This document shows, in pieces, positions 47,177 to 51,160 of a DNA stretch of 64,000 nt. This stretch comes from Halopseudomonas sabulinigri (GTDB lineage Bacteria; Pseudomonadota; Gammaproteobacteria; Pseudomonadales; Pseudomonadaceae). Each line of letters begins with the position of its first letter. Positions within the stretch are counted from its first letter, which is position 1. Where the stretch lies: assembly GCF_900105255.1 (NCBI RefSeq), contig NZ_LT629763.1, positions 1,550,001-1,614,000 on the forward strand, read 5' to 3'. The position numbers and the translations under genes are program-made. Under the pieces are notes generated by a model that had not been told where the DNA came from, searched no databases, and saw only the letters and a list, made by a program, of their open reading frames with translations.

Positions 47177-47665
47177 ATGGACATGCACACACTTTACCGC
47201 GACCACCACGGCTGGCTCGAACGCTGGTTGATCAGCAAACTCGGCTGCTCGCACCGCGCGGCCGACCTGGCGCAGGACACCTTCATGCGCTTACTGGCCA
47301 AGGACGACCTGCCCGGACTGCATGAACCCAGGGCCTTTCTCACCACAGTGGCCAAACGGGTCATGTCCAACCAATGGCGCCGCAAACAGCTCGAGCAGGC
47401 CTACCTTGAAGCCTTGGCACACCAACCCGAACGCTTCGCCCTGTCGCCGGAAGAGCAGGCACTGGTGATGGAGACCTTGCTGCAGGTCGACCGCCTGCTC
47501 GACGGCCTCCCCGGTGTGGTGCGCCGTGTTTTTCTGCACGTACAGCTCGACGGCATGAGTCATGCCGACGTGGCCCGGGCGCTGAATATTTCCATCAGCA
47601 CAGTCAAGCGCCACCTGCGCCGCGCCGCCCTGCGCTGCTACTTCGGCCTGGAACTGGAGCAATGA
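47177..47665 (+). CDS. FecI-type ECF sigma factor
   Basis: The 162-residue iron-starvation sigma factor has region 2 (LGCSHRAADLAQDTFMRLLA, then FLTTVAKRVMSNQWRR) and region 4 with the helix-turn-helix SHADVARALNISISTVKRHL. It overlaps the fecR-like gene by 4 bp. With FecR and the TonB-dependent receptor next door it should form a cell-surface signalling system that switches on receptor expression. The Fur-box-like site upstream predicts iron control. Confidence 0.9.
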   Translation: MDMHTLYRDHHGWLERWLISKLGCSHRAADLAQDTFMRLLAKDDLPGLHEPRAFLTTVAKRVMSNQWRRKQLEQAYLEALAHQPERFALSPEEQALVMETLLQVDRLLDGLPGVVRRVFLHVQLDGMSHADVARALNISISTVKRHLRRAALRCYFGLELEQ

Positions 47666-48603
47666 CCTCCCTTGGCGATATTCCTCAGGACGTCGCGCTG
47701 GCGGCGGTAGACCGGCATATCGCACAGCTGGCCGGCGAGCTGGACCCAACAGAGCTTTGCGACTGGCTGGCAGCCGATGAACGCCATCAGCGTGCCTGGC
47801 AGCACATCCAATCCACCAACCAGCAGTTCGGCGCGGCCCTCAACCCCGCCGCCCGCGCAGCACTGTTGGCCCCCAGCGGGGCGCAGCGCCGCCGGGCAGT
47901 CAAAGCCCTTGGCCTGCTGTTGTTTAGCGGCAGCCTTGCGACTGTGGGCTATCAACTACCCTGGCGCGAGAGACTGGCCGATATTCGCACCGACACCGGA
48001 GAACATCGCAGTCTTACCTTGCCAGGTGGGGCGCAGCTGGAGGTCAACACCGCGAGCGCAATAAACCTCGAGTACACTGCCTCGGGCCTGCAACTGCGAC
48101 TGCTGCAAGGCGAGCTGCTGCTGAATACCTCCGCGACCAACATCAGTGTTGTCACCGCACAGGGCGTGCTGCGGCCGCAGGCCACGCGTTTCGCGGTGTT
48201 ACAGCGGGACGGCAGGTCGCAGGTTGATGTATTGAGCGGCGCGGTGGCGATTTACCCCGCACAGGCCTCGGGGCTGGCAGGCGTGCTGCAAGCAGGCCAG
48301 AGCGCCCACTTCGATGAGCGCCAGCTGTCGGCGGTACAACCCACTGACGCACAGCGCTTCGCCTGGACCCAGGGCATGCTGGTGGCCTCCAGCATGCCGC
48401 TCGGGCAATTTGTGCAGACGCTTGCGCGTTACCGCCCAGGCTATCTGGGCTGCGACCCCACCATCGCGCAGCTGCGGATCTCCGGCTCCTACCCCCTGGC
48501 CTCAACTGACCGCATTCTCACCAGTCTGACGCAAAGCCTGCCGGTGCGCTTGCAAAGCCTGAGCCGTTATTGGGTGCGCCTGGTACCTGCCAGCGCCGCC
48601 TGA
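47662..48603 (+). CDS. FecR-type anti-sigma / signal-transducing protein
   Basis: The 313-residue protein has an N-terminal cytoplasmic DUF4880 region (CDWLAADERHQRAWQHI), one membrane helix (about 80-96) and a periplasmic FecR domain (DTGEHRSLTLPGGAQLEVNTASAI). A C-terminal secretin/STN-like segment (LGQFVQTLARYRPGYLGCD) is also visible. It should hold or activate the sigma factor in response to the receptor. The stop is 94 bp before the receptor gene. Confidence 0.9.
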   Translation: MTSLGDIPQDVALAAVDRHIAQLAGELDPTELCDWLAADERHQRAWQHIQSTNQQFGAALNPAARAALLAPSGAQRRRAVKALGLLLFSGSLATVGYQLPWRERLADIRTDTGEHRSLTLPGGAQLEVNTASAINLEYTASGLQLRLLQGELLLNTSATNISVVTAQGVLRPQATRFAVLQRDGRSQVDVLSGAVAIYPAQASGLAGVLQAGQSAHFDERQLSAVQPTDAQRFAWTQGMLVASSMPLGQFVQTLARYRPGYLGCDPTIAQLRISGSYPLASTDRILTSLTQSLPVRLQSLSRYWVRLVPASAA

Positions 48604-48697
48604 GCATTTCGCCGAATATAAAATAAATGAGCTGATTTTGATTCTCGCGTGACAGGGAAGGTAACCACTCGCCAACACCATTAAAAAAGGAATCAGC

Positions 48698-51160
48698 ATG
48701 AGCTTCCCTCCCTTCCAGCGTCACCGACTGGCGGTCTGCTCCGCTACGCTGCTGCTGACCAGCGCGCTGGGTCTCGCGGCAGGCCCGGCGACCGCAGCCG
48801 ATAGTCCCCAGGTAAAGCACTACCAGATCGCCAGTAGCGCACTGGAAGACGCACTCAACCAATTCGGCCGCGAGGCCGGCATCCTCTTGTAGTACGACCC
48901 CAGCCTGGTTGCAGGGCGGCGAGCGCCGGCACTGCGTGGCGATTTTAGCGTTGCCGAAGGCTTGCAGCACTTGTTGCGCGGCAGCGGCCTGACCTTGGTG
49001 CACCAGGGTGACAACAACTACACCCTGAGCAAAGCGCAAGCGACTGGCGATGCCGACGGTACGGCTATCTTGCCCGCGATGGTCGTATCCGGCGCCGCCG
49101 TCAGCAGCACCACCGAGGGCAGCAACTCCTACACTACCGAGGTTACGAGCTCATCCACCGGACTTGACCTGTCGATACGCGACACACCGCAATCGGTCAC
49201 CGTGGTGACCCGTCAGCGCATGGACGACCAGAACCTGACCTCCATCTCCCAGGTGCTGGATCAGGTTGTCGGTATCGAGGCGAACAGCACCAGCGCGCTG
49301 GGCAGCGACGGCATCAGCTACATGTCACGCGGCTTCTCGGTGGAAAATTATCTGGTCGACGGTGTGCCGCGGCCCACCGGCATCTATGGCTTTACCGAAG
49401 AAACCGCCGACATGATCGCCTACGACCGCATCGAGGTGGTACGCGGCGCCTCCGGCCTGATGTCCGGCATGGGCTCCCCCGCCGCTAGCGTAAACCTGGT
49501 GCGCAAGCGCGCTACCGCCATGCCGCAGGTACAGATCAACCTGCAGGGTGGCGCCTGGGACATGTACCGTGGCGAAGTAGACGTCAGCGGGCCGCTGCTC
49601 GATTCCGGCCGATTGCGCGGCCGGCTGGCAGCGGCCTATCAGGAGAACGACAGCTTCGTCGACCGCGAGCACCATGAGCAGCAGGCGCTTTTTGGTGTGC
49701 TCGAGGCCGATCTGAGCGACAGCACGCTGTTGTCAGCAGGCTTCGAGTATCAGGATTTCAACAACCAGGGCGCCTCGCGCGACGGCCTGCCGCTGTTCTA
49801 TAGCGACGGCAGCTATACCGATCTGTCGCGCTCAACCAACTCCGGCACCGACTGGTCCGACTTTACCCGCGACAGCTTGAACCTCTTTGCCCGCCTGGAG
49901 CATCAGTTGGGCGACCGCTGGCAACTGAGAGTTCAGGCCGAAAACAAGAGCGGCGGCTACGACGAAAGCCTGGGCTACAACTACGCCCGCTGGATCGACA
50001 AGCAAACCGGCGCCGGTGGCACGCTGTATATGACCCGCTGGGCCGCCGACCAGGAGATAACCGCTTTCAACGCCAGCCTGCAAGGTAGCTTCGACTGGCT
50101 GGGCCAGGAGCACCAGCTGTTATTCTCGGCCTTCCACGCCGACTATGCCAATGAGGGCGACAATTACCCAGGCTGGTACAACGGCACCATGCCGGTGTCG
50201 CTGCCCAATTCCTTTGAGTTCTATGAAACCGGCTACTGGCCCAAGCCCGACCTGAGTGCAACGGGCGGCACCTTCGGCTCAGATGTCAAAACCACCGCCT
50301 ACGCCGCGGCCATGCGCCTGAATCCAACCGATCGGGTACACCTGCTGCTCGGCGCCCGCGTCAGTGACTGGCAGCAGGACGACTGGACTAAAACCGCCGC
50401 CGGTGCCAAGACCACCACACCGGTCACCAACGAAAACGGCGTGGTCACCCCCTATGCCGGCCTGGTGCTCGATTTGACCGAGCAGTGGTCCACCTACGCC
50501 AGCTACACCGCCATCTTTGAGCCGCAGAACGAACAGGACATCAGTGGCAAGACGCTCGACCCGCTGGAGGGCAACAACTACGAGCTGGGCCTCAAGGGTG
50601 AGCTGATGGACGGCCGCCTGAATGCCACTCTCTCGGTGTTTCAGCTGCAGCAGGAGAATCTCGCGGTATCACTCGGCCCGGGCTTCGTTACGCCTAACGG
50701 CGCTCAGGCTTACCGCGCCGAGGCTGGTGCCGAGTCCGAAGGCTTCGAGCTGGAGCTTGCCGGTGAGCTGGCTGAGGGCTGGCAGGTGGCTGGCGGCTTT
50801 GCGCGCACCACCACCGAGAACAGCACCGGCGATCACATCAACCGCTACATCCCGGACAATACCTTCAAGCTGTTCACCACCTACGAGTGGGATCAACTGC
50901 TGCAAGGCCTGACAGTTGGCGGCAACCTGCGCTGGCAAGACGAGGCCGTTGCCGAAGACGCCGGCCCCAATGGCGAGGATTTCGTGCAGGACAGCCTGTT
51001 TCTGGTCGACCTGCTGGCCAAATATCGGGTCAACGAGCAGTTGAGTCTGGCGCTCAACCTGAACAACGCCTTCGACAAGACCTACTACAGCGGCATGCAG
51101 TATATCGGCCGCTACGGCGAGCCCCGCAACCTGGTCGCGTCGGCACGCTGGCAGTTCTGA
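48698..51160 (+). pseudogene. TonB-dependent siderophore receptor (FpvA/FecA-like) interrupted by an in-frame TAG
   Basis: One continuous frame would encode 820 residues: a signal peptide (1-34), an N-terminal STN signalling domain, a plug beginning near RDTPQSVTVVTRQRM, and a 22-strand barrel ending in the aromatic ARWQF. Codon 65 (48890-48892) is TAG within GILL-stop-YDPSLVAG, where homologues usually have Ser or Gln. No frameshift is involved, and homology continues directly after it. As written, only a 64-residue peptide is made from the signal-bearing start; the downstream part has no export signal. It is either a recent pseudogene or a sequencing error. Confidence 0.85.

Follow-up and report, generated by a model that had tools for sequence, protein, structure and literature searches.

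An amber codon in the signalling domain of a TonB-dependent siderophore receptor of Halopseudomonas sabulinigri, and a differently placed amber in the orthologue of a sister lineage

The receptor gene and its sigma/anti-sigma neighbours

The stretch of DNA analysed here (the window, 64,000 nucleotides) is part of a single 4.03-Mb contig and carries on its forward strand the frame of a TonB-dependent siderophore receptor with a signalling (STN) domain, 821 codons long from an ATG at 48698 to a terminal TGA at 51158-51160 (48698-51160). The only other stop in this frame is a TAG at codon 65 (48890-48892). Apart from this TAG, no lesion was found among the 819 sense codons, and no second stop or frameshift was found in the window copy. 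The TAG divides the gene into a 5' fragment (48698..48892, forward strand), which comprises the start codon, a start that looks by eye like a signal peptide, the first part of the STN domain and the TAG itself, and a remainder of 755 codons free of further stops (48893..51160, forward strand), which comprises the rest of the STN domain, the Plug (about 49175-49486) and the beta-barrel (about 49709-51067).

The piece that follows the TAG matches the Pfam families for STN, Plug and beta-barrel, in that order, and passes the NCBIfam cut-off for TIGR01783 but neither of the two equivalog cut-offs, for FauA and for FhuE. Its closest solved structures are FpvA (PDB 2iah/5odw), with a match of E 2e-142 that covers residues 1-755 of the piece, and then FhuE and FauA. 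The window receptor shares the STN-Plug-barrel architecture of these three proteins and, unlike them, is interrupted by a TAG. Its STN domain has the highest score of the five in its own genome, but the TAG separates the domain from the start codon, such that no single open frame runs through it behind the signal peptide. No signal peptide was seen by eye in the frame 3' of the TAG, and a DNA search found no second copy of the 5' part of the receptor elsewhere in the genome.

Upstream on the same strand lie an intact fecI-type ECF sigma factor gene (47177..47665, 162 amino acids), whose product contains sigma-70 regions 2 and 4 and scores above the cut-off of NF009180, and an intact fecR-type anti-sigma gene (47662..48603, 313 amino acids), whose product contains a FecR domain (PF04773) above cut-off. 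The two genes overlap by 4 bases. This adjoining pair, with both members intact, is what a FecI/FecR-type signalling system has. The pair is not the ferric-citrate FecI/FecR itself, because its products fall below both NCBIfam equivalog cut-offs (175.6 bits against 260 for FecI and 211.4 bits against 385 for FecR). Across the window and the two relatives discussed below, the best conserved stretch of the gap between fecR and the receptor is 48628..48654 (forward strand), which from its position may be an ECF-sigma promoter; a pattern scan for promoters and terminators gave nothing useful for the receptor. The order sigma, anti-sigma and STN receptor is that of known FecI/FecR operons such as Fec and Fox, with which the window also shares the overlap of fecI and fecR and a conserved block ahead of the receptor. 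It differs from the Fec and Fox systems in that the transducer is cut inside its own signalling domain. The sequence-only reading had described a TonB-dependent receptor readable in one frame except at codon 65, with neither a frame shift nor further damage downstream and with intact cognate FecI/FecR genes, and all of this is borne out by the open frames and family matches given above.

Orthologues in the nearest relatives

The nearest named relatives at the receptor locus are the metagenome-assembled genome UBA836 and Halopseudomonas oceani DSM 100277; the source genome is grouped in the same genus as the latter. H. oceani has the same gene order as the window (GNAT, fecI, the end of fecR, receptor, ppa), and its receptor orthologue is whole, in one open frame. 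The window gene thus has a premature stop in a gene that is whole in H. oceani, as a nonsense pseudogene does. The closest orthologue, that of UBA836, lies whole within one contig (locus L026 in G023:C191), is accompanied by open fecI and fecR genes, and also has one in-frame TAG, at codon 58 in the STN domain (L026:4812-4814). The sequence-only reading had pointed to a comparison of codon 65 with homologous receptors, and in this comparison the H. oceani orthologue is whole and UBA836 has a sense codon at this position. The window in turn has a sense codon where UBA836 has its TAG. Because the stops occupy different codons (65 and 58) and neither lineage has a stop where the other has its TAG, they are independent, and the receptor locus has, to judge from these alignments, been broken at least twice.

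UBA836 also carries an insert of about 270 bp (L026:4332-4603) between the conserved block and the start of its receptor, bounded by 36-nt terminal inverted repeats that are 86% complementary. Relatives of this insert are found in 13 of 37 genomes of the genus, and a single genome has as many as 30 match rows when partial and self-inverted ones are counted; the window's own genome has four such rows, one nearly full and three partial. On account of the terminal inverted repeats and of the related copies across the genus, we call the insert MITE-like.

Identity between the window and UBA836, taken per 100 bases, is 76-82% in the GNAT gene and 48-77% (mean about 62%) from fecI to the STN domain, as against 91-100% (mean about 95%) from about 49200 to 51100; 3' of the receptor the gap is 64-71% identical, with indels, and ppa is 84-97% identical. 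Synonymous divergence between the two is 0.77 for PPi-PFK, 1.5 for GNAT, 1.28 for fecI, 1.22 for fecR and 0.45 for ppa, as against a dS of 0.177, with a dN of 0.0118 and a dN/dS of 0.067, for the tract that the window and UBA836 have in common (49200..51150, forward strand, limits approximate). The step in identity and dS at the edges of this tract therefore supports homologous recombination of the plug and barrel.

Its dN/dS places the tract under purifying selection. When changes were polarised by H. oceani, 22 synonymous and 6 non-synonymous codons fell on the window branch and 31 and 8, respectively, on the UBA836 branch; 21 unpolarised codons (18 synonymous, 3 non-synonymous) were excluded from these counts. 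Under a Poisson model, the 95% upper limit on the neutral share of the branch is 5.6-14.0% for the window and 3.1-11.7% for UBA836, where the range depends on the background dN/dS that is assumed. Given the low dN/dS of a tract under purifying selection, the window stop is probably young; the dating is weaker than these numbers suggest, because the branch lengths may partly belong to a functional donor. Little further decay is seen: the window copy has no second lesion, its STN domain still scores well and its barrel lies within the tract of low dN/dS, which is in keeping with the recent loss that had been put forward from the sequence.

Frequency of broken receptors and alternatives to loss

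To place the two stops against a background, we draw on a TIGR01783 survey of 37 genomes of the genus, the window's own included, in which the rates rest on the 150 matches listed and were counted by hand. Among these 150, two have a stop within the TIGR01783 span, each a TAG: a TonB siderophore receptor of another member of the genus (L106; G006:C15:106889-108742, reverse strand) and a second TonB siderophore receptor of UBA836 (L112; G023:C68:14468-16516, reverse strand), whose frame is interrupted once, by a TAG that lies 73 codons from its 3' end. With the window and UBA836 orthologues, whose stops precede the span, at least 4 of the 150 matches listed are broken, where stops ahead of the span were looked for in these four rows. 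A family-level search of 298 genomes gave 2 of 150 among the matches listed with a stop, and these are the same window and UBA836 orthologues. One of the 96 STN matches in the genus is flagged for a stop; that of UBA836 sits just before its own match. Against the background of 4 in 150 listed receptors, two broken copies among three orthologues, both with the stop in the STN domain, are more than expected, and a post-hoc estimate from this background puts at roughly 4% the chance that one of two sister orthologues is also broken. A flag of one TAA in a further genome (G008) lies 5' of the start of the gene concerned and is no interruption. We also considered a preference for TAG as a signal and rejected it. 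All four stops are TAG; if the codons of the other receptors resemble those of this one, such an outcome has a probability of about 0.14-0.16, and the preference is unremarkable because 61-63% of the one-step nonsense paths of the receptor lead to TAG.

One alternative is that the assembly has one wrong base at the TAG and that the receptor is functional. With the identity threshold set at 55%, 58 window genes align to H. oceani and together span 55.7 of the 64 kb (coverage of the H. oceani frames 0.68-1.00), and the TAG is the sole mid-gene interruption among them, as a lone error would be; the absence of any other interruption in 55.7 kb, however, speaks for a clean assembly. Each of the 58 alignments is unbroken and shows no frameshift; of the four stop flags raised among them, three fall 5' of the genes, where the query start had been extended too far. 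The fecR gene fell below the 55% filter and was checked through its own open frame. The independent stop in the same domain of the sister lineage makes real loss more plausible here, and we consider a base error unlikely.

Another possibility is low-level readthrough of the TAG by a near-cognate tRNA, a mechanism proposed for many in-frame stops of bacteria, so that a little functional receptor is made and the stop acts as a damper on expression. This would fit the low dN/dS 3' of the stops in two stop-bearing lineages, and also the account, in the part of PMC7918605 on which we draw, of in-frame stops as widespread in bacterial genes with a dN/dS below 1. Against this, none of the 44 tRNA genes above cut-off in the window's own genome has a CUA anticodon, in a list that is incomplete because it lacks tRNA-Ile and tRNA-Ala(TGC), and none is found in UBA836 (83% complete) at the 27 loci named by ARAGORN out of 29 matches, the two unnamed matches being at or near contig ends. 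A 45th, sub-threshold match in the own genome is no tRNA according to ARAGORN. Loss of RF1 was rejected, since the prfA match is stop-free and above cut-off in all four genomes, and RNA structure around the stop does not exceed that of shuffled sequences (z 0.60). Moreover, the two stops lie at different codons with different neighbours, and the UBA836 leader also holds the insert. We therefore regard readthrough as quite unlikely. The overall interpretation offered from the sequence is supported as regards recent loss and not as regards a suppressible or phase-like amber, although the TAG of the sister lineage does reveal repeated loss.

A general tolerance of TAG is likewise not supported, as no other in-gene stop was recognised in 464 kb of the own genome by a scan of partial sensitivity. 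This codon-usage scan, which included the window, returned 12 candidates (4 TAA, 5 TAG and 3 TGA), which on inspection by eye were put down to gene junctions or shadow frames. The most doubtful one was examined more closely and proved to be a MazG-like gene with a Schlafen group 3 helicase gene directly behind it in the same frame, the helicase having an end that resembles an S24 peptidase (L135:9684-12500, reverse strand, in the own genome, G000); we take the two to be a possible defence pair. Elsewhere the scan gave seven candidates in 266 kb of UBA836 (4 TAG, 1 TGA and 2 TAA), a sample that is biased because it was drawn mostly from receptor-bearing contigs, two in 78 kb of H. oceani and none in 5 kb of G006. 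Two candidates, both TonB receptors of UBA836, are real in-gene stops by eye, and most candidates were judged by eye alone. The sensitivity is partial because the scan missed two of the four known stops, namely those of the window and of G006.

A more speculative proposal, to which we give little credence, is that in this Halopseudomonas clade the STN segment repeatedly acquires short-lived amber "off" alleles that can be cleared by selection or recombination, with low readthrough keeping some receptor and with the plug and barrel swapped between species. Least probable of all is that selection favours stops in the STN domain because they leave an exported N-terminal fragment able to hold the FecR-like anti-sigma factor: both stops fall in codons 39-113, at a distance of 7 codons from each other, in a segment that offers only about 8% of the one-step nonsense opportunity of the gene, and whole signalling domains, when overproduced, block cell-surface signalling (PMC11637429, in excerpt), but the fragments hold about half of the domain and probably would not fold, and recombination could overwrite stops in the barrel tract, leaving those in the STN domain as survivors.

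Probable receptor loss and a possibly orphaned signalling pair

The best reading of the locus, at a probability of about three in four, is that a dispensable xenosiderophore receptor was lost recently and that such losses recur in the clade. With the nonsense codon at position 65, the ribosome would make the signal peptide and roughly half of the STN domain before it stops, and no outer-membrane receptor would be expected because the plug and barrel lie 3' of the TAG without an exportable start. The receptor presumably serves the uptake of a siderophore made by others. A siderophore gene cluster was found in only one Halopseudomonas strain of the set described in the relevant part of PMC10165715, which suggests that receptors of this kind probably take foreign siderophores and are dispensable. 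The second, differently placed stop shows that the sister lineage UBA836 lost the same receptor in an event of its own, and the low-dS tract shows that the plug and barrel have been exchanged between the lineages by homologous recombination. Independent loss together with barrel exchange would be expected if the receptor is of benefit under some conditions and a burden under others, and the cost may arise, for example, if the receptor is an entry site for bacteriocins or phages. In Pseudomonas aeruginosa, the types of the pyoverdine receptor gene fpvA vary between clones, possibly owing to bacteriocin pressure (PMC2777410, in the portion cited), and by analogy a similar pressure may act on the Halopseudomonas receptor. 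The fpvA variation lies within one species, whereas here the plug and barrel are shared between lineages, both of which have a stop.

Recent receptor loss would also leave the FecI/FecR pair without its transducer. According to the passages of PMC11637429 that concern FoxA, the signalling domain of this receptor shields the anti-sigma factor FoxR from proteolysis. By analogy with FoxA and FoxR, loss of the transducer may destabilise the FecR-like protein and not simply silence the pair.

The kind of change seen here is already known, because in-frame stops are reported to be widespread in bacteria in the sections of PMC7918605 consulted. As in the cases described there, the window receptor has one TAG, a frame that is kept and purifying selection downstream; in the example of Figure 1 of that report the same stop site occurs in several species, whereas here the sites differ between lineages. 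A single stop codon is by itself otherwise ordinary, and the added interest lies in the second independent stop and in the barrel exchange. The locus offers a clean and roughly datable receptor loss in which two sister lineages have different stops and a recently exchanged plug and barrel. It could be used to test whether in-frame ambers in bacteria are dead alleles or dampers, and it could show what an orphaned FecI/FecR pair does.
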